Source: Seleniivibrio woodruffii (GTDB taxonomy: Bacteria; Chrysiogenota; Deferribacteres; Deferribacterales; Geovibrionaceae). Taken from it: DNA of 49,397 nucleotides. The translations under genes and the position numbers were made by a program. The stretch is from the NCBI RefSeq assembly GCF_029267515.1, contig NZ_JAJUIS010000011.1, forward strand, positions 1 through 49,397, in the 5' to 3' direction. The first letter of the stretch is position 1. Each line of letters opens with the position of its first letter. Below, piece after piece: positions 8,909 to 31,697 of this stretch. The notes under the pieces are model-generated. The model had not been told where the DNA came from and searched no databases. It saw nothing but the letters and a program-made list of their open reading frames with translations.

Positions 8909-9922
8909 TTACGCCCTCCTCCTGTTCTCAATGCGGTCGAAAATAGCGGTAAGCCATTTCGACACAGGCTCAACAAGCCCGCGCGGCTGATAGCGCATAA
9001 CGATAATGAGCACCAGACCGAAGATGATGAGGTGCAGACCGGGGAGCGTATCGCCGAGGTATATCCTCGTAAGCTCGCCAACCGGACGCAGAAGGAACGC
9101 GCCGAGAACGGGACCTAAGATTGTGCTTCTGCCGCCGATGAGGGCGATGAAAGCGATTTCATAGGACATATCAAGCCCCATGATGGATTTCGGGTAGAAA
9201 TACAGAACGAGCTGGGCATAGAAAGTGCCGCCCAGAGCTGTGAGAAAGCAGCTTATCGCCATTGCGATGAGCTTATATTTTGAAACCTTGATACCAAGTG
9301 CCTCAGCAGCTTCCGGCTCTTCGCCGCCGGCAGCAAGGTAGTAGCCCACTTTTGAGCGCATCATGAAAAAGGTCAGTATCAGCACCAGTACAAGCATGGT
9401 GAGAATGATGTAGTAATAAGGAACTTTGCTGAGAAACTGAAAATCTTTGAACGAGTTGCCCACAAGACTGATAAGCAGACCTTTGGGACCGCGAACCTCG
9501 AAAGGACCGAGCTTTTCAATGTTCTCCACAAGCACACGAAGACCCTCCGCAAACGCAATGGTTGCAAGTGCAAAATATGCGCCGCGCAGTTTCAGCGTCG
9601 GGATACCTATCAGCAGACCGAACGCAACGGCAACTATGCCGCCCGCAATCATGCCTACCCAGGGGCTTATGTTGTATGTCAGATAAAGGAGTGTTGAAGT
9701 ATAAGCGCCAAGTCCCACAAATGCGGAATGACCCAGCGGAAGAACCCCGGCGAAGCCGCCAACAAAGTTCCATGAAGAGGTCAGATACGCATAGAAGAAT
9801 ATCAGTATGAATATCTGCAGCATAACGGGGCTTTTAATGAACAGAGGCAGCGCATACAGCACAGCCAGCACAAGCCCTGCGAACACTTTGTGAGTTGTAG
9901 GTACGTTGCTTAAAAATTTCAT
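8909..9922 (-). CDS. livM: Branched-chain-type ABC transporter permease LivM
   Basis: Inner-membrane permease of 337 residues with about nine hydrophobic segments and the LivM loop motif A-A-E-A-L-G-I-K-V-S-K-Y-K. Typical phrases are W-N-F-V-G-G-F-A-G-V-L-P-L-G-H-S-A-F and G-G-R-S-T-I-L-G-P-V-L-G-A. A strong SD (AAGGGGG) precedes the ATG. It forms the translocation pore with LivH. Confidence 0.92.
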   Translation of the reverse strand: MKFLSNVPTTHKVFAGLVLAVLYALPLFIKSPVMLQIFILIFFYAYLTSSWNFVGGFAGVLPLGHSAFVGLGAYTSTLLYLTYNISPWVGMIAGGIVAVAFGLLIGIPTLKLRGAYFALATIAFAEGLRVLVENIEKLGPFEVRGPKGLLISLVGNSFKDFQFLSKVPYYYIILTMLVLVLILTFFMMRSKVGYYLAAGGEEPEAAEALGIKVSKYKLIAMAISCFLTALGGTFYAQLVLYFYPKSIMGLDMSYEIAFIALIGGRSTILGPVLGAFLLRPVGELTRIYLGDTLPGLHLIIFGLVLIIVMRYQPRGLVEPVSKWLTAIFDRIENRRRA

Positions 9923-24156: not shown

Positions 24157-24220
24157 AACGAAATATCGTTATTTAAGTATCTAAATATCGTTACCTGTGT
24201 TAAAATAACGATATATCGTT
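24157..24220. promoter_or_regulatory. Activator sites AACGA-N4-TCGTT
   Basis: Sites: 24157-24170 (AACGA-AATA-TCGTT), 24179-24192 (ATCTA-AATA-TCGTT, degenerate left half) and 24207-24220 (AACGA-TATA-TCGTT, inside an 18-bp perfect palindrome at 24205-24222). The first starts 53 bp upstream of the azoR sigma-54 promoter and the last ends 14 bp before the divergent activator gene. They are probable binding sites of that activator, for activation of azoR and autocontrol. Confidence 0.75.
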
Positions 24221-24234
24221 ATCAGGACAAAGAG

Positions 24235-25755
24235 ATGAACATAGACAGAAACGAATTTTTCAGAGAGGTCACTCTCAGGATATGCGGAAGTCTGGACATT
24301 CAGACCGCAGTGGAAAAAACATACGAATACATAAACCGCGTGTTTAAGGTTGACACAATCTATCTGAACATCCACGACGAAAAGCTGGGGGCGCTGCGCT
24401 TCATTGCCGTTGTGCCGGACGGAGCGGGCGGCAGAACCGTAGGAGGCATAATACCTCTGGACAGAGAACTGTGGGAGATGTCGCAGATGCAGAGGACACC
24501 GCTCATAAACGACATAGACAACCAACACCCTTTCATTCAGAAAATGGCGGAGCGCACGAACGGTCTCGGCACGTCTTCGCTCATTCTTCCCCTGCACATC
24601 GACGGAACAAAGGTGGGAACACTCGTTATCCGTGCTGCAGGAGACAGAATGTATACTCAGGAACATCTCGACCTTATGAGCAGTGTCATCGACCCGTTCA
24701 CCGTCGCACTTTCAAACACCCTCGCCCACACGGATCTGGTGAACCTCAAAGACAGACTTGTGGACGAAAACAGATTTTTGCAGGACGAACTTACGGCAAA
24801 ATATCACGAGGACATAATCGGGTCTAAAAGCGGGCTGAAAAACGTAATGGAGATGGTTTCGCAGGTATCACTGAAAAACAACACGGTACTTCTTCTCGGC
24901 GAAACTGGAGTGGGCAAGGAAATTATTGCAAACGCAATACATTACGGCTCGCCGCGAAAGAACGGTCCGTTCATAAAGGTAAACTGCGGAGCCATACCGG
25001 AATCTCTCATGGACACGGAGCTTTTCGGGCACGAGAAGGGCGCCTTCACGGGGGCTGCATCTCTGAAACGGGGCAGATTTGAGCGGGCGGACGGCGGCAC
25101 AATATTTCTGGACGAGATAGGCGAACTGCCGATGCAGGTACAGGTGCGGCTTCTGCGTATATTACAGAACCGTGAGCTTGAAAGGGTAGGCGGAACAGTG
25201 CCCATTCCACTGAACATCAGAGTCATAGCGGCAACCCACAGAAAGCTGGAGGACATGGTAGCGGACGGCAGTTTCCGCGAGGATCTGTGGTTCAGACTGA
25301 ACGTCTTCCCCATATACATCCCGCCCCTGCGGCAGAGGAAAGAGGACATACCCGCCCTTGCCCGATATTTCATAGAGCAGAAATGCAGGGACATAGGCTT
25401 CCACCAGACTCCGCCTGTTGAGATAGGCGCGCTGGACAGGCTTGTAAACTACTCGTGGCCTGGAAATGTCCGCGAGCTTCAAAATGTAATAGAGCGGGAA
25501 CTCATCCGATATAAAAGCGGGCGGCTGACGTTCGATTCCATCGCGGCGGACAGGCTTGAGGACAAAAAGCTATCGCGTGCACAGCAGCCGGATTTCACAC
25601 CGGAAGAGTTGGACAGCCACATGACTAAATACATTGAGCAGGTACTCAGCCACACCGGAGGAAAGATTAACGGCAGAGGCGGCGCGGCGGAGCTTCTGGG
25701 GCTGAAACCCAGCACACTCAGAAGCAAAATGCTGAAACTAGGCATCAGAAGATAA
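24235..25755 (+). CDS. GAF-domain sigma-54 transcriptional activator
   Basis: Enhancer-binding protein of 506 residues. The N-terminal GAF-like sensory domain spans about 1-165. The AAA+ domain has Walker A G-E-T-G-V-G-K-E (222-229), G-A-F-T-G-A (269-274), Walker B I-F-L-D-E (290-294) and an R-finger region. The C-terminal Fis-type HTH reads G-R-G-G-A-A-E-L-L-G-L-K-P-S-T-L-R-S-K. It has no receiver domain, so control is by a small molecule binding GAF (NorR/FhlA-type layout). Divergent from the azoR operon, whose sigma-54 promoter and palindromes make it the obvious target. The inducer is unknown; electrophiles or quinones are a guess. Confidence 0.92.
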   Translation: MNIDRNEFFREVTLRICGSLDIQTAVEKTYEYINRVFKVDTIYLNIHDEKLGALRFIAVVPDGAGGRTVGGIIPLDRELWEMSQMQRTPLINDIDNQHPFIQKMAERTNGLGTSSLILPLHIDGTKVGTLVIRAAGDRMYTQEHLDLMSSVIDPFTVALSNTLAHTDLVNLKDRLVDENRFLQDELTAKYHEDIIGSKSGLKNVMEMVSQVSLKNNTVLLLGETGVGKEIIANAIHYGSPRKNGPFIKVNCGAIPESLMDTELFGHEKGAFTGAASLKRGRFERADGGTIFLDEIGELPMQVQVRLLRILQNRELERVGGTVPIPLNIRVIAATHRKLEDMVADGSFREDLWFRLNVFPIYIPPLRQRKEDIPALARYFIEQKCRDIGFHQTPPVEIGALDRLVNYSWPGNVRELQNVIERELIRYKSGRLTFDSIAADRLEDKKLSRAQQPDFTPEELDSHMTKYIEQVLSHTGGKINGRGGAAELLGLKPSTLRSKMLKLGIRR

Positions 25756-25764
25756 CGCGACCTG

Positions 25765-27546
25765 TCAGAGCAGAGAATATTCCCACTTTCTGCTGGGTTT
25801 TGCGAAAGAGCGGTTAACATCCCGCGCAACGTATTCAATGCCATAGAACCTGCTGTAGAATTCCTTTGCCTCCGCCTCAATGTCAAAGCTGAAAATTTCC
25901 GGATGCAGAGAGCTTGCTATGTGCATCAGTCCCAGTATCCAGCGGGGGCTGCCGAAATCGAAACAGGGCGCTTTGTGATTGTATATCCTCTTGTTCCTGA
26001 CGGCGTTCACATCCACACCGTGCTTTTCGCAGAGAGAATAAAACTCGTCCGTCTCCGTGTGCATGAAGGAAGAGATAAAGATAACGTCGGGGTTCAACCC
26101 GTTCAGAGTTTCCGCCGTGATTCGCATACCCGGTCTGCCGGAAAAACTCATGGAGTTGTTGACGCTGATACCGCCAGCCATCTCCGCCAGCCAGTTTTCA
26201 AGCCTGCCCGGCTCAAGAGCGAACAGCGGCGAACTCATGACATAATGAACCCGCGGTTTCTCTGTCAGCTTTCCCACGCCCTCACTTATAATATCTATCT
26301 TAGAGCGCATATACTGCGTGAGGTTCCGCGCACCCTCTTCGTGTCCTGTGAGCTTCCCGAAATATTTTATGGTGTCGGCATACTTGTCGAAACTCTGTAT
26401 ATTCCCGTGAAATCTGGGCAGACCACCGTCAACAAGCACGTCCTCCCAGCATTTGATCACTTTTTTTCTGTCGCGGACACCTATGGCGGCGAGGGTGCCT
26501 TCTATTATCTCAAGGGCGCGCGTGAACGGGTATCCGCCTTCGAAGTCGTTCTCGTCAAATGACCTTTTCGCGACAGCGCCTTTCAGTTTCAGCTCATGTC
26601 CGCATTTCGGACAGTTCTTTTCGTCACCATCTATATGCAGCTTTCTAAGTTTCGAACCCATGGGACCGTAGAAATCCCGCTCGAAGATAAGCTCACCGCA
26701 GGCGGGACAAAAGGTGTTTATGCAGTCGGTACCCGGAGAGTTGAACAGATAAACATAGTTGATTATCTTTTTCATCCGTCCGATGAGCTTTTCGGATTCC
26801 GCGATGGCTGGTTCACCCTCTATGTCCGCATCGTCCAGCGGTATGAACCGCATCACCTGAAGGGGGATGTCCTTCGATATGGAGGCAACAGCCTCCGCAA
26901 TCCGCAATGCGGTCTCCTCGTCGCCCTTTTTGTGCATACAGGCGGTTTCCACGTGTACGCCCTTTTCATAAAAAACTTTTATATTGCGCAGAACCGGCAG
27001 GTATGAAGGCGCGCCGCAGCCTTTATAGTCCGCGTCACTAAGCCCCTTTATGCCTATGTTTATGAAGTCAAGATAAGGCGCAAGCTCATTCAGCGAATAT
27101 TCCGTGAAATATCCGTTGGATGAGCATCCGGTTAGCAGCCCGTTCTCCTTCGCCAGCTTTGCCACCTCAAGAAAAGTGTGGAAAGAAGCCAGAGGATCGT
27201 TCATCAAAAAAGCTATTCCCGCACACTCAAGCTCAAACGCCTTGGCAATAATCTGCTGCGGAGTGAGTTTTTTCATGGCGGTGCTGTCGGCATCCATCTC
27301 CTTTGCGCAGACCGTGGCGACACATCCGCCGCAGTCGAAGTTGCACCCGCTGGTGCTTATCTGCAAAAATTTTGCGCCGGGGTAAAAGTTCATAACCGGC
27401 ATAGTCTCCGCAGAGATGGGGCACACCACAAGATAGCTGTGGGGAAAAAGCTCCGTAATCTTCCCGCCATCAACCGTATACCGCCCGCAGGCTCCTTTTG
27501 CGCCATCGTTTATGGCACATCCTATCTCGCATACGTTACACTTCAC
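25765..27546 (-). CDS. Radical SAM protein fused to a partial substrate-binding-protein lobe
   Basis: 593 residues, GTG start, GGGGGAAG upstream, no signal peptide. Order: a four-Cys motif C3-x2-C6-x3-C10-x9-C20 like that of AmmeMemoRadiSam/PflA-type activases; the radical SAM cluster C68-x3-C72-x2-C75; a TIM-barrel region to about 260; a zinc-ribbon-like pair C280-x2-C283 and C312-x2-C315; then residues about 387-572. That last part matches the C-terminal lobe and connecting helix of the class III binding modules encoded at 28733 and 30636 (for example R-V-H-Y-V-M-S, A-G-G-I-S-V-N, N-P-D-V-I-F-I, E-F-Y-S-R-F-Y). Divergent from the importer genes, 124 bp apart. The reaction is unknown; modification or breakdown of the imported metal complex is a guess. 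Confidence 0.85.
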   Translation of the reverse strand: MKCNVCEIGCAINDGAKGACGRYTVDGGKITELFPHSYLVVCPISAETMPVMNFYPGAKFLQISTSGCNFDCGGCVATVCAKEMDADSTAMKKLTPQQIIAKAFELECAGIAFLMNDPLASFHTFLEVAKLAKENGLLTGCSSNGYFTEYSLNELAPYLDFINIGIKGLSDADYKGCGAPSYLPVLRNIKVFYEKGVHVETACMHKKGDEETALRIAEAVASISKDIPLQVMRFIPLDDADIEGEPAIAESEKLIGRMKKIINYVYLFNSPGTDCINTFCPACGELIFERDFYGPMGSKLRKLHIDGDEKNCPKCGHELKLKGAVAKRSFDENDFEGGYPFTRALEIIEGTLAAIGVRDRKKVIKCWEDVLVDGGLPRFHGNIQSFDKYADTIKYFGKLTGHEEGARNLTQYMRSKIDIISEGVGKLTEKPRVHYVMSSPLFALEPGRLENWLAEMAGGISVNNSMSFSGRPGMRITAETLNGLNPDVIFISSFMHTETDEFYSLCEKHGVDVNAVRNKRIYNHKAPCFDFGSPRWILGLMHIASSLHPEIFSFDIEAEAKEFYSRFYGIEYVARDVNRSFAKPSRKWEYSLL

Positions 27547-27610
27547 GGTCTTCCCCCATATATTTATATATTTACAAAACCTCGATTACGTTATATACAA
27601 TTAAGCATAA

Positions 27611-27652
27611 TGACGAAAAAGTCAATATCTATCAATTAATTACGCTTGTAAT
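27611..27652. promoter_or_regulatory. Candidate operators in the divergent radical SAM/permease promoter region
   Basis: Two inverted repeats are TGAC-GAAAAA-GTCA (27611-27624) and ATTAC-GCTT-GTAAT (27639-27652). They lie in the 124-bp gap that must serve both directions. No known metal-regulator box (Fur, NikR, Zur) or cobalamin riboswitch could be recognised; the leader is too short for the latter. Confidence 0.35.
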
Positions 27653-27670
27653 AACGCAAAGAGGCTTAAA

Positions 27671-28729
27671 TTGAAGCTAAAGAGGCTGTTGCGGAAAAAG
27701 GATAATAATAACGCTCTTTCACTGAGGGCGTTATTATTGATCCTTTCGGTTCTCCTTGTTGCGGGTTTGATGCTGTCCATCGTCATAGGGCGCTACGACA
27801 TATCGCTGCACAATCTCCTGGCGACATTCTTTCCGTGGTTCATAAAGGTGAACGGCGGACAGGACGCGGCAATGCTGAATACGGTTGTCTTCAACGTCCG
27901 TCTGCCGAGACTTCTCGCCGCGGTGATAGTGGGCGGCGCACTCTCAATGTCCGGCGCGGCATATCAGGGCATCTTCCGCAACCCAATGGTCTCTCCCGAC
28001 ATACTTGGTGCGGCTGCGGGTGCTGGCTTCGGCGCGGCGGTGGGGATACTTCTTTCGTTCAACTTTTTCTGGATACAGATAATGTCTTTCATTTTCGGGC
28101 TGATTGCCGTGGGCGTGACATATTTCATAAGCCTGCGCTTCGGGCGGAGCAGCAACCCCACACTGGTTCTGGTGCTTACGGGGCTTGTGGTCGGCACGCT
28201 GTTCTCGTCTTTCATATCGCTGGCGAAGTTCGTTGCCGACCCCTACAGCAAACTGCCCGCCATCACCTTCTGGCTGATGGGCGGTCTGTCGTCCGTAACA
28301 CTTGCCGACGTTGGGCTTCTCGTCGTTCCCGTGGTTCTGGCGGGGATACCGCTTCTGATGCTCAGGTGGCGGCTGAATGTGCTCTCTTTCGGCGACGAGG
28401 AGGCGCGGGCAATGGGAATCGATACCAACCGTCTGCGGCTGATAATCATCTTCTGCGCAACGCTCATGACGGCGGCATCCGTCTCCATAAGCGGCATGGT
28501 GGGCTGGGTTGGGCTTGTTATCCCCCATCTGGTGCGGATGATTACGGGACCCGACCATAAGGCTGTACTCCCCGTTTCTGTTTTAGTGGGCGGGCTTTAT
28601 CTGCTCATCGTGGACAACGTGGCGCGAAACACCTTTTCAATGGAAATACCCCTCGGCGTGCTGACATCCATAATCGGCGCGCCGTTCTTCATATACCTCA
28701 TGCTGTACGGAAAAAAGAGCTGGAGCTGA
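27671..28729 (+). CDS. FecCD-family ABC transporter permease
   Basis: Permease of 352 residues for iron-chelate, corrinoid or related metal complexes. About ten hydrophobic segments are present, with family phrases R-L-P-R-L-L-A-A-V-I-V-G-G-A-L-S-M-S-G-A-A-Y-Q, N-P-M-V-S-P-D-I-L-G and G-L-V-I-P-H-L-V-R. The start is TTG, supported by GAGG six bases upstream. A dimer would pair with the ATPase encoded three bases downstream. The substrate cannot be assigned. Confidence 0.92.
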   Translation: MKLKRLLRKKDNNNALSLRALLLILSVLLVAGLMLSIVIGRYDISLHNLLATFFPWFIKVNGGQDAAMLNTVVFNVRLPRLLAAVIVGGALSMSGAAYQGIFRNPMVSPDILGAAAGAGFGAAVGILLSFNFFWIQIMSFIFGLIAVGVTYFISLRFGRSSNPTLVLVLTGLVVGTLFSSFISLAKFVADPYSKLPAITFWLMGGLSSVTLADVGLLVVPVVLAGIPLLMLRWRLNVLSFGDEEARAMGIDTNRLRLIIIFCATLMTAASVSISGMVGWVGLVIPHLVRMITGPDHKAVLPVSVLVGGLYLLIVDNVARNTFSMEIPLGVLTSIIGAPFFIYLMLYGKKSWS

Positions 28730-28732
28730 CGG

Positions 28733-30622
28733 ATGAACGCCATACTTGAAATAGACAGGCTCACCTGCGGATATAAAGCAAAAACCGTTGTGAACGGCAT
28801 CTCCATGAGCGTGAGCCGAGGGGAGATACTCTGTATTCTTGGTCCAAACGGCGTGGGCAAAACCACCTTTTTCAAAGCCATGATGGGCTTCATAAACGTG
28901 CATTCCGGCAAAATACTCCTGAAAGGCAAAGATATACGCCGTTTAAGCTACACAGACATAGCCAGAACCATAGGCTACGTTCCCCAGTACCACACGCCGC
29001 CATTTCCTTTTAAGGTTCTGGACGTAGTGACAATGGGGCGCACCTCCCGCATAGGTACCTTTGCGGTGCCTTCAAAGGCGGATAGGGAGGTCGCGGAGAG
29101 CGCACTTGAGCTTCTTGGTGCACTGCACCTGCGCGACAAGATATACACGGAGATAAGCGGCGGCGAACGCCAGCTTGTGCTCATAGCCCGCGCCATTGCG
29201 CAGGAACCTGAGATGCTGGTTATGGACGAACCCACGTCCAATCTGGATTTCGGCAACCAGATAAAGGTGCTGGACAACATAAACAGGCTTGCCGACAGCG
29301 GACTGGGCATAATCATGACAACCCACTTTCCAAACCACGCGTTCCTTTCCGGCAACAGGGTTGCGCTGATGAAGCATGGGCGCATCATCGACGAGGGCGA
29401 CCCGGACAGTGTGATCACCGAACAGAGCATGAAAAACGTATACGGCATAAACGTAAGGATGATGGATATAGACGGCGGCAGGGTTAAGACCTGCGTGCCG
29501 CTTCTTGAAGACGGAGGGGAGAAGATGAAGAAGAATTTCCCGTTCATGAATATTAAAGACGTTTCAAAACACAGGGACGAACCGCCCGCGCAGATGAAAA
29601 AACCGCAGATGCCCGACACCCGCCTCATAACCGATATGGCGGGCAGAAAGGTGCTCGTCAACTCCGACGTAAGGGGCGTTTTCGGCTATAACCCCATGGT
29701 GACGGCAATCACCTATTGTCTCGCTCCGGAAAAGATATCGGGGCTGTGTATGCCCCCCATGCCGCCGGAGCGGATGATGGCTCAGGAGGACTATCTGTCA
29801 CTGCCTGTGCTCGGCATTATGGGAAAGCTGTTCGGCGGCGGTGTGCACACCTTTAACGCCGAGGCTGTTAAAAAAGCTGCGCCGGACGTGATAATCTCCA
29901 TGTCCCTTTACAAGATAGACGAAACCGAGGTGCAGACAGCGGACAACCTTCAGGCGGAACTTGGCATCCCGGTTCTGATATACGACGGCACTCTGGACAG
30001 AACGGCGGACGTTCTGCGCCGTATCGGTGACCTTTTGGGCGTGAGCGAACGGGCGGAGGAGCTGGCATCATATTTTGAGAAGAAATACGAACGCGTCACA
30101 TCGAAACTGGCAAAAATACCAGTGAAAGACCGCAAACGGGTCTATTACGCACAGTCACCGACGGGACTTCTGACAGAACCGAGAGGCGCGCGCCACGGCG
30201 AGGTCATAGATTTTGCGGGCGGCATAAACGTTGCGGAAGTCTTTGAACAGCGGGGCTGCGGCAAGACAAAGGTCAGCGCGGACGACATTATCCGCTGGGA
30301 TCCCGAAGTCATAATAATAATGTCCGACGAGATGAAATCGCAGGACAGGCTCATAAACCGGATGCCGTCCGACCCCTTCTGGTCTTGCCTGAAAGCTGTG
30401 CGCAAGGGGCACATATACGAACCGCCCGGCGGCATGTACAACTGGTTCGACAGACCGCCGTCGGTGAACAGGCTCATAGGGCTTGTCTGGCTGACTGACA
30501 TACTTTATCCCGACGTTTTCAAATGGGATATGACCGACGAGGTTATGGAGTTTTACAGTCTCTTCTACAGGATGAACATAAACGAAAAACAGGCTGCCGC
30601 AATGCTCGGCACCTCAAAATAG
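28733..30622 (+). CDS. ABC ATPase fused to a class III substrate-binding domain
   Basis: 629 residues, far longer than the usual 255-residue FecE/BtuD ATPase. Residues 1-250 are a normal ATPase: Walker A G-P-N-G-V-G-K-T-T, signature I-S-G-G-E-R-Q, Walker B L-V-M-D-E-P-T-S-N-L-D and an H-loop T-T-H-F. After a polar linker (about 255-293), residues about 294-620 form a complete class III binding-protein domain (T-D-M-A-G-R-K-V; N-W-F-D-R-P-P-S-V-N-R) clearly homologous to the next gene. There is no signal peptide or membrane segment between them, so the domain should stay in the cytoplasm. An in-frame ATG at 29525 (Met265) with GGAGGGGA just upstream could also give the binding domain alone. 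Confidence 0.9.
   Translation: MNAILEIDRLTCGYKAKTVVNGISMSVSRGEILCILGPNGVGKTTFFKAMMGFINVHSGKILLKGKDIRRLSYTDIARTIGYVPQYHTPPFPFKVLDVVTMGRTSRIGTFAVPSKADREVAESALELLGALHLRDKIYTEISGGERQLVLIARAIAQEPEMLVMDEPTSNLDFGNQIKVLDNINRLADSGLGIIMTTHFPNHAFLSGNRVALMKHGRIIDEGDPDSVITEQSMKNVYGINVRMMDIDGGRVKTCVPLLEDGGEKMKKNFPFMNIKDVSKHRDEPPAQMKKPQMPDTRLITDMAGRKVLVNSDVRGVFGYNPMVTAITYCLAPEKISGLCMPPMPPERMMAQEDYLSLPVLGIMGKLFGGGVHTFNAEAVKKAAPDVIISMSLYKIDETEVQTADNLQAELGIPVLIYDGTLDRTADVLRRIGDLLGVSERAEELASYFEKKYERVTSKLAKIPVKDRKRVYYAQSPTGLLTEPRGARHGEVIDFAGGINVAEVFEQRGCGKTKVSADDIIRWDPEVIIIMSDEMKSQDRLINRMPSDPFWSCLKAVRKGHIYEPPGGMYNWFDRPPSVNRLIGLVWLTDILYPDVFKWDMTDEVMEFYSLFYRMNINEKQAAAMLGTSK
29513..29527 (+). promoter_or_regulatory. 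Internal Shine-Dalgarno and in-frame ATG at domain boundary
   Basis: GGAGGGGAGAAG-ATG places a strong SD before Met265 of the ATPase fusion, exactly between ATPase and linker. The product from here would start M-K-K-N-F-P-F-M-N and still lack a hydrophobic signal. It may be a relic of two formerly separate genes or a working internal start. Confidence 0.5.
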
Positions 30623-30635
30623 ACAGGAGGACGCA

Positions 30636-31697
30636 ATGTTAAAAGCGCTCAGACTCACGATTCTGATGATGTTATTCTGCGTGTCCGCTTTCGCGGCGGA
30701 TACCTATAAGTTCACCGATATGGCAGGCAGAACGGTGGACATGCCGAAACAGGTCACAAAAGTTTTCTCGACAAACCCCATCGGCACACTTTATCTCTAC
30801 GCCATAGCACCGGAAAAGATAGCCGGAATAAACTGGCCCATAACCCCCATGGAAAAAAAATACACATCCGAACAATATCAGAAACTGCCCAACCTCGGCG
30901 GCAACTTCGGCGGTAAAAAGATAACCATGAACTATGAGGAGATACTCAAGGTCAAACCCGACTTCATAATCCATATCTCCGACATCAACCCGATGAACAT
31001 CGACACCGCAAACAAACTTCAGGCACAGCTCAATATCCCCGTCATAGTCCTTGACGGCAACATAGTGAAAACCGCGGAAGTTATCTCTGCGATAGGCAGG
31101 GTTTCCGGTTCCGAAAAGAAAGCGAAAGTTCTTGCAGATTATTACAGCAAAACCATGAAAGACGTTAAAGCAGCTCTGGCAAAGGTTCCCGCCGACAAAA
31201 AGGTAACAGTTTACTATGCCGAGGGCGCAAAAGGGCTTGAGACAGACCCCTCCGGCTCAAACCATGCGGAGGTTATAGACATAGCGGGCGGTAAAAACGT
31301 TGCCAGCATTCAGGAGACCCCCGGTTTCGGGCGCACACCCGTCTCCATGGAACAGGTGATGGGCTGGAACTCCGACTTTATCATAGTCTGTTCAGATCAG
31401 GGTTTCTCAACCGACAGATTCTATACGACAATTTTCTCCGACCCGCTCTGGGCAGGGCTTAAAGCAGTCAAAGCGAAAAACGTATACGAAACTCCTTTCG
31501 CACCGTTCAACTGGATGGACAGACCCCCGTCTGTAAACAGGATAATGGGCGTAATATGGATGACAAACCTCCTTTATCCCAGACAATATAAGGTTGATAT
31601 CAAAGCAAAAACCAAAGAGTTTTACAGCCTGTTCTACAACATGAAACTCACAGACGCGCAGGTCAACGAGATACTCGCCACCTCCGTCAGAAAATAA
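30636..31697 (+). CDS. Periplasmic class III substrate-binding protein
   Basis: 353 residues with a clear Sec signal (M-L-K-A-L-R then a hydrophobic core, cleavage near A-F-A-A-D). The mature protein begins Y-K-F-T-D-M-A-G-R-T-V-D-M-P, the usual start of Fe-chelate/corrinoid binding proteins (PF01497 type). It is closely related to the binding domain of the upstream fusion (shared N-W-[M/F]-D-R-P-P-S-V-N-R and E-F-Y-S-L-F-Y near the end). It follows after 13 bp with AGGAGG. This is the exported receptor that delivers substrate to the FecCD permease. Confidence 0.92.
   Translation: MLKALRLTILMMLFCVSAFAADTYKFTDMAGRTVDMPKQVTKVFSTNPIGTLYLYAIAPEKIAGINWPITPMEKKYTSEQYQKLPNLGGNFGGKKITMNYEEILKVKPDFIIHISDINPMNIDTANKLQAQLNIPVIVLDGNIVKTAEVISAIGRVSGSEKKAKVLADYYSKTMKDVKAALAKVPADKKVTVYYAEGAKGLETDPSGSNHAEVIDIAGGKNVASIQETPGFGRTPVSMEQVMGWNSDFIIVCSDQGFSTDRFYTTIFSDPLWAGLKAVKAKNVYETPFAPFNWMDRPPSVNRIMGVIWMTNLLYPRQYKVDIKAKTKEFYSLFYNMKLTDAQVNEILATSVRK

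Follow-up and report, generated by a model that had tools for sequence, protein, structure and literature searches.

We analyzed a stretch of 49,397 nucleotides from Seleniivibrio woodruffii (contig NZ_JAJUIS010000011.1, hereafter the window), in which an ATP-binding cassette (ABC) importer and a radical S-adenosylmethionine (SAM) enzyme are encoded side by side at positions 25765-31697, and in which modules of the class III substrate-binding kind are fused both to the ATPase of the importer and to the enzyme. Judged by its operators, this is very probably a molybdenum and tungsten (Mo/W) acquisition locus under ModE-type control. The whole is best explained, in our view with about equal chances of being right and wrong, by a ModE-controlled Mo/W importer, sensing by the ATPase-borne domain and processing by the radical SAM enzyme. 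The parts, their conservation and co-location, the constraint on the fused domains and the ModE-type operators in three phyla are what was observed, and it is from these that we infer a Mo/W complex as the ligand and the two cytoplasmic steps.

The motif CGTTAT-N12-ATAACG, whose half-sites and 12-base spacing agree with the published ModE consensus ATCGCTATATA-N6-TATATAACGAT (PMC2700814), occurs as a putative operator in the divergent promoter of the locus (shuffle P 0.0016; Table 1). At the orthologous position in genome G001 there is a site with one mismatch, and the importer operon of UBA6799 is preceded by an exact one. Exact sites number 9 in the window’s genome, against about 0.16 expected, and are found directly before modE-modA (L171) and before a ModA-like/ModB-like operon (L169, L170). 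The ModE of this genome is the 242-residue protein adjoining modA (PRK10676 5.8e-29, Mop domain 3.2e-12); it scores 94.7-96.5 bits against TIGR00637, just under the cutoff of 98.5, and the Mop domain and the neighboring modA support its identity. Among 45 loci encoding the radical SAM fusion, 15 carry a site with no more than one mismatch in the 330-base leader, against 0.03 expected; these come from three phyla and, the loci being related, do not amount to 15 independent events. No such site with a spacing of 10, 11, 13 or 14 was present in the same 45 leaders. A longer palindrome, CGTTATGTT-N6-AACATAACG, has 10 and 3 copies in two methanogen genomes (Methanosarcina and a second methanogen), where its reversed control has 0, and there it precedes modA, modD-like genes, an fmdE-ferredoxin operon, a VnfG-type nitrogenase and the radical SAM/importer operon; modABC and nitrogenases are under ModE control in Methanosarcinales (PMC9765008). 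Because operators of this type recur across three phyla and are shared with modA, fmdE and nitrogenase genes, the system most likely belongs to Mo/W homeostasis and not to the uptake of heme or corrinoids, which were among the ligands considered in a preliminary description of this DNA.

TonB-dependent uptake normally serves large or scarce complexes. TonB receptors or TonB genes adjoin several Desulfobacterota relatives, and in the window’s genome exact boxes (9507-9530 and 15092-15115 of L204, G000:C10:143001-162500) stand before an ExbB-ExbD-TonB operon and before an operon for a lipoprotein-like protein and a TonB-dependent receptor. A Mo/W chelate is therefore the more likely cargo, compared with a bare oxyanion, as far as these gene arrangements can indicate.

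Other signals of ligand or control were considered and set aside. Rfam riboswitches were absent from the window’s locus, and the only cobalamin riboswitch in the 14 sources scanned (L133:7821-8007, Desulfobacterota genome) lies downstream of the radical SAM fusion and leads other genes. Genes that by eye look larC- and larB-like (L072:12025-13952, L074:12160-13619) lie by more distant class III importers and hint at nickel there; as those loci have no radical SAM fusion, a nickel reading was not carried over to ours. Five weak matches to a Fur-type box in the window are not clearly above chance, and none is in the operon promoter.

The importer and the two fused modules

The permease (FecCD, 286 bits against a cutoff of 26.5), the exported class III binding protein (Peripla_BP_2, 83.6 bits against 27.5, with a hydrophobic stretch at its N-terminus) and the ATPase with intact motifs (ABC_tran 2.6e-30, 106 bits; Walker A GPNGVGKTT, signature SGGE and Walker B MLVMDEP in the translation) make up an importer of type II (FecCD/BtuCD-type), the class of metal-chelate ABC importers. 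Compared with solved structures, the exported protein matches PDB 4pag at 2.7e-52 and MolA (3psa) at 5.4e-13, and the best match of the ATPase by sequence is HI1470 (MolC, 2nq2_C). The window’s genome has 10 places that match Peripla_BP_2, 9 of them above the cutoff, and 3 of the 10 are at this locus. These are the three modules that the preliminary description had recognized, namely the exported protein, a full domain on the ATPase and a partial C-lobe on the radical SAM protein, and Pfam, phmmer and two AlphaFold2 models agree on them. The description had also placed both fused modules in the cytoplasm, and the sequence scan bears this out: it detected no signal peptide or membrane segment in either fusion, with no 19-residue Kyte-Doolittle window above 1.6, a value that the exported protein and the permease do exceed. 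Since an ABC ATPase is itself cytoplasmic, both fused modules should face the cytoplasm.

In the ATPase fusion, Peripla_BP_2 is matched at residues 367-563 (3.1e-20), and the AlphaFold2 model has an ABC domain, a disordered linker of about 35 residues (259-293) and a binding domain that matches 4pag over its whole length (template modeling score 0.89 by target length, Foldseek 2.5e-24). Among 51 Deferribacterota genomes, 2 carry this fusion, and no mapped ATPase linked to the radical SAM fusion in other phyla has it. Long ATPase open frames in relatives with a high guanine-cytosine content (L131, L132, L153) were rejected as further cases, being spurious 5' extensions with the ATPase at the end of the frame and no binding domain fused to it. 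Despite its narrow distribution the fusion is no accident: it is intact in both carrier genomes (75% identity), the nonsynonymous divergence (dN) of the ATPase-borne binding domain is 0.15, that of the ATPase part 0.18 and that of the exported binding protein 0.145 (synonymous divergence is near saturation, which leaves dN/dS ratios rough), and the domain keeps 71 of the 91 columns conserved among exported relatives. The ATPase-borne domain, which has a DRPPSxNR stretch in common with the exported protein, is under strong purifying selection.

The radical SAM part of the second fusion (Radical_SAM 1.1e-11, 45.6 bits against a cutoff of 29.5) is PflA/AmmeMemo-like, with NifB and PflA among its Foldseek structure matches. 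The nearest named family is AmmeMemoRadiSam (TIGR04337), which aligns to residues 1-320 at 116 bits, short of the NCBIfam cutoff of 220; the protein here differs from that family by its added helical segment and binding-protein C-lobe. Pfam and NCBIfam gave no HemN-type match for it, so that it is not of the ChuW type. The CX3CX2C motif (C68, C72, C75) and the N-terminal cysteines C3/C6/C10/C20 are invariant in 12 relatives. The C-lobe is matched by Peripla_BP_2 at residues 387-523, over positions 93-230 of the profile only and at 22.2 bits, below the Pfam cutoff of 27.5; phmmer (4.4e-11) and Foldseek (7.9e-11) matches to 4pag and a Foldseek match to 4ovk (2.0e-11) nevertheless lead us to regard this predicted partial lobe as real. 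In the AlphaFold2 model residues 339-424 are helical in the position of the N-lobe, and the C-lobe alone is formed. It keeps 27-32 of the 91 exported-protein columns, with 27 of the 91 falling in gaps, and the stretches DFGxPRW and NRSF are invariant among the relatives of the fusion. These invariant residues of its own and the missing N-lobe indicate a lobe constrained for its own purpose and not a copy of the transport pocket. Both fused modules are conserved and show no decay. A separate, shorter radical SAM relative is also encoded in the window’s genome, and at two other loci, L161 (G595:C1) and L151 (G469:C57), the radical SAM part and the C-lobe are in separate frames, which may reflect a split fusion or a sequence error.

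Distribution and gene neighborhoods

Full-length relatives of the radical SAM fusion, with 42-81% identity, were found by a scan of public genomes in Seleniivibrio, a metagenome-assembled genome (MAG) of the Deferribacteraceae, Methanohalophilus, Methanosarcina and a Desulfobacteraceae MAG, and a profile search recovered it in the methanogens’ phylum (33 of 295 genomes) and in the Desulfobacteraceae phylum (8 of 395 genomes). Sequence comparison thereby presents it as an ancient fusion. Of 49 loci, some from repeated genomes, 41 encode a SAM methyltransferase within 6 kb of the fusion; the corresponding numbers are 36 for an exported class III binding protein, 35 for a FecCD permease and 34 for an ATPase. 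The methyltransferase is of the class I SAM type with invariant motifs, and the common archaeal order is binding protein, methyltransferase, radical SAM fusion, permease and ATPase. The conserved co-occurrence with class III importers that the preliminary description called for is therefore present in three phyla, and the spread of this fusion, together with the selection on the ATPase fusion, rules out that the two are isolated accidents.

Only a part of the idea that both fusions form one linked layout holds. The radical SAM fusion recurs by class III importers, but it occurs without the ATPase fusion in all genera but one, and in G001 its neighborhood lacks the importer; on these comparisons the two fusions are independent, with different histories.

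Some neighborhoods depart from the common pattern. A Desulfobacteraceae MAG (L081:1-9749) has tandem importers, one accompanied by a plain radical SAM protein of 340 residues and a 393-residue protein that matches no known family, the other by the radical SAM fusion. A second copy of the fusion in Methanosarcina spelaei (L141, G041:C35:25001-43000) lies by nifH, PII-like and VnfG/AnfG-type nitrogenase genes; ModE-type boxes stand between the genes of this nitrogenase region, and there is no transporter close by.

Open-access papers yielded nothing on a fusion of a radical SAM enzyme with a binding protein in metal uptake, or on the operon. Each part is of a known kind, and we have not found the combination described in that literature.

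Proposed mechanism and alternatives

We propose that the exported binding protein and the FecCD permease, as a type II importer of the MolBC-A/BtuCD kind, would import a Mo/W complex, probably a chelate. The domain borne by the ATPase on its flexible linker would bind incoming ligand in the cytoplasm and slow the pump once the ligand is plentiful there, a role that in ModC falls to an unrelated C-terminal domain. The radical SAM fusion, a separate cytoplasmic enzyme, would dock the imported complex on its C-lobe, and its radical SAM center, in most relatives with the class I methyltransferase, would modify or break the chelate to give usable metal. Both cytoplasmic steps are offered tentatively: the sensor role of the ATPase domain has, by analogy, a little less than an even chance, and action of the radical SAM enzyme on the imported complex comes close to an even balance without reaching it. 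ModC has a substrate-binding (molybdate) regulatory domain at the same position and is subject to trans-inhibition (PMC4031551), and MetN is trans-inhibited through its own C-terminal domain (PMC12357092). Trans-inhibition as in ModC would be a simpler role for the ATPase domain than the capture and hand-over of the preliminary description, which is possible as well.

The locus resembles known systems in part. MolBC-A, a molybdate/tungstate importer (Haemophilus influenzae HI1470-1472), has the same type II architecture and link to Mo, its ATPase is the best solved-structure match of the one here by sequence and its binding protein is matched too; it differs in that the binding protein here is closer to 4pag, the relation to molybdate transport being one of sequence only. 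To our knowledge, MolBC-A has neither a cytoplasmic binding domain on its ATPase nor a radical SAM partner. ModC of Methanosarcina acetivorans ModBC is also the ATPase of a Mo/W importer with a C-terminal cytoplasmic domain that could sense substrate, but that domain is small and of the Mop/TOBE type, whereas the ATPase here carries instead a complete class III binding protein (Peripla_BP_2) on a disordered linker. Anaerobic heme utilization loci likewise combine genes for a class III importer and for a radical SAM enzyme, ChuW, whose substrate is the complex taken up into the cytoplasm; ChuW, however, is HemN-like and carries no fused binding module, and regulation and ligand differ.

Several observations weigh against the proposed mechanism. 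The methyltransferase partner is missing from the window, and a search of three Seleniivibrio-type genomes for an orthologue gave generic matches only; a methyltransferase of the window’s genome by an exact ModE-type box (L205) was tried as the missing partner and proved to be such a generic match. The radical SAM fusion of G001 has no adjoining importer, in a neighborhood otherwise as in the window, and a HisKA_7TM histidine kinase gene (L077:9872-11521) takes the place of the importer cassette; in UBA6799 the fusion and the importer are on different contigs, and the radical SAM gene has no box within two mismatches. No site within two mismatches is present at 26 of the 45 radical SAM fusion loci, and the box in the window carries a mismatch. 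The residues of the whole transport pocket are not kept in the radical SAM C-lobe, and both the ligand and the reaction are putative. Finally, MolBC-A, which contains the closest characterized relatives, MolC and MolA, carries molybdate (PMC4031551); as MolA-type systems transport the plain anion, a chelate is not required, and a bare or thio anion is possible.

The radical SAM fusion could instead be a metal-cofactor assembly enzyme that builds or loads a Mo/W (or vanadium) cluster or cofactor with the C-lobe as receptor, like NifB fused to NifN. NifB and PflA are among the structure matches, one Methanosarcina copy lies by alternative nitrogenase genes, in a region that has ModE-type boxes but no transporter, and class III binding lobes and the lobes of nitrogenase NifD/K/E/N are placed in one structural superfamily of SCOP (helical backbone metal receptor). 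Mo metabolism also offers a cytoplasmic binding-protein-like domain in the MoeA DVU0951 with PF12727 (PMC10102598). NifN-NifB fusions and MoeA with PF12727 offer precedents, as cytoplasmic metal-cofactor enzymes to which a lobe that receives a metal or ligand is fused, but the enzyme families and lobes are others, and the likeness seen is one of architecture. Most relatives, moreover, cluster with an importer and a methyltransferase and not with cofactor genes, and NifB is a general match to the radical SAM fold, no NifB model having been matched by sequence; we consider cofactor assembly unlikely.

It is also rather improbable that the importer handles simple oxyanions (molybdate, tungstate or thio forms), with both cytoplasmic modules mere sensors or buffers and the radical SAM activity unrelated to the ligand. 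ModE-type control, the resemblance of the ATPase and binding protein to MolC and MolA, and the cytoplasmic molybdate-binding regulatory domain of ModC (PMC4031551) agree with such an importer. The best structural match is nevertheless 4pag and not MolA, the TonB receptors and a TonB system preceded by ModE-type boxes point to a large substrate, and the invariant active-site cysteines of the radical SAM enzyme and motifs of the methyltransferase would be superfluous for a pure sensor. That another metal complex (heme, corrinoid, or a nickel or iron chelate) is carried, with ModE-type control merely coordinating its uptake with Mo status, is very unlikely: generic class III families (BtuF, IsdE, FepB-type) match weakly, one relative has the cobalamin riboswitch noted above, and the ChuW loci for anaerobic heme use likewise join class III importer genes to one for a radical SAM enzyme, but ModE-type sites in three phyla place the system in one regulon with modA, fmdE and nitrogenase genes, the riboswitch is found nowhere else in the sources scanned, and the radical SAM part is PflA/AmmeMemo-like with no HemN-type match.

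Sulfide alters the speciation of Mo and W, and methanogenesis, nitrogen fixation and several anaerobic respirations need these metals. How strict anaerobes in sulfidic habitats acquire Mo/W is an open question, to which a ModE-controlled system with a lobe-bearing radical SAM enzyme, if true, would be a concrete and testable answer common to archaea and bacteria. It is conceivable, if rather doubtful, that methanogens, sulfate reducers and Deferribacterota share a widespread, undescribed anaerobic route in which a ModE-controlled class III system takes up a Mo/W chelate, which is then broken or remodeled in the cytoplasm by the lobe-bearing radical SAM enzyme with the methyltransferase as partner. 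Binding-protein modules would then have found a second use on the cytoplasmic face of the membrane, the pump carrying one as a candidate sensor and the enzyme another as a docking lobe.

Feature coordinates and neighboring genes

Table 1. Features of the locus and its surroundings, in window coordinates
Feature	Position	Strand	Basis or remark
Radical SAM fusion protein, 593 residues, GTG start	25765..27546	-	Pfam, AlphaFold2 model, Foldseek
Radical SAM part	~26566-27546	-	within 25765..27546
Helical segment and class III binding-protein C-lobe	~25768-26565	-	within 25765..27546
Putative ModE-type palindrome CGTTATATACAATTAAGCATAATG, one mismatch	27589..27612		divergent promoter of radical SAM gene and importer operon
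FecCD-type permease, 352 residues	27671..28729	+	Pfam FecCD 4.2e-85
ABC ATPase with C-terminal class III binding domain, predicted cytoplasmic	28733..30622	+	Pfam, AlphaFold2, Foldseek, dN/dS
ABC part of ATPase fusion	~28733-29503	+	
Disordered linker of ATPase fusion	~29507-29611	+	
Complete binding domain of ATPase fusion	~29615-30619	+	
Exported class III substrate-binding protein, 353 residues	30636..31697	+	Pfam 1.8e-23
Second putative ModE-type site, one mismatch	24167..24190		before sigma-54 activator and flavodoxin-fold gene
GAF - sigma-54 AAA - Fis-type helix-turn-helix transcription activator	24235..25755	+	Pfam; adjoins radical SAM gene
Resistance-nodulation-division (RND) efflux pair	3' of exported binding protein gene		named by eye

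The sigma-54 activator is a neighbor of the radical SAM fusion gene in G001 as well as in the window, and a functional tie between them is putative. The second ModE-type site, between the activator and the flavodoxin-fold gene, is kept in G001 (L069:15272-15295). The activator may respond to Mo status, and this site could be, but need not be, in one regulon with the site before the importer operon. Elsewhere in the window’s genome, the exact box at 6597-6620 of L205 (G000:C27:4001-16000) lies between two genes, that of the SAM methyltransferase and one whose long product has an NTPase_1/DUF2478 domain at its C-terminus; an NTPase_1 gene is also close to the related class III locus L151. At the contig end, positions 1-238 of the window partially match tmRNA (Rfam RF00023, 47.2 bits against a gathering score of 47).

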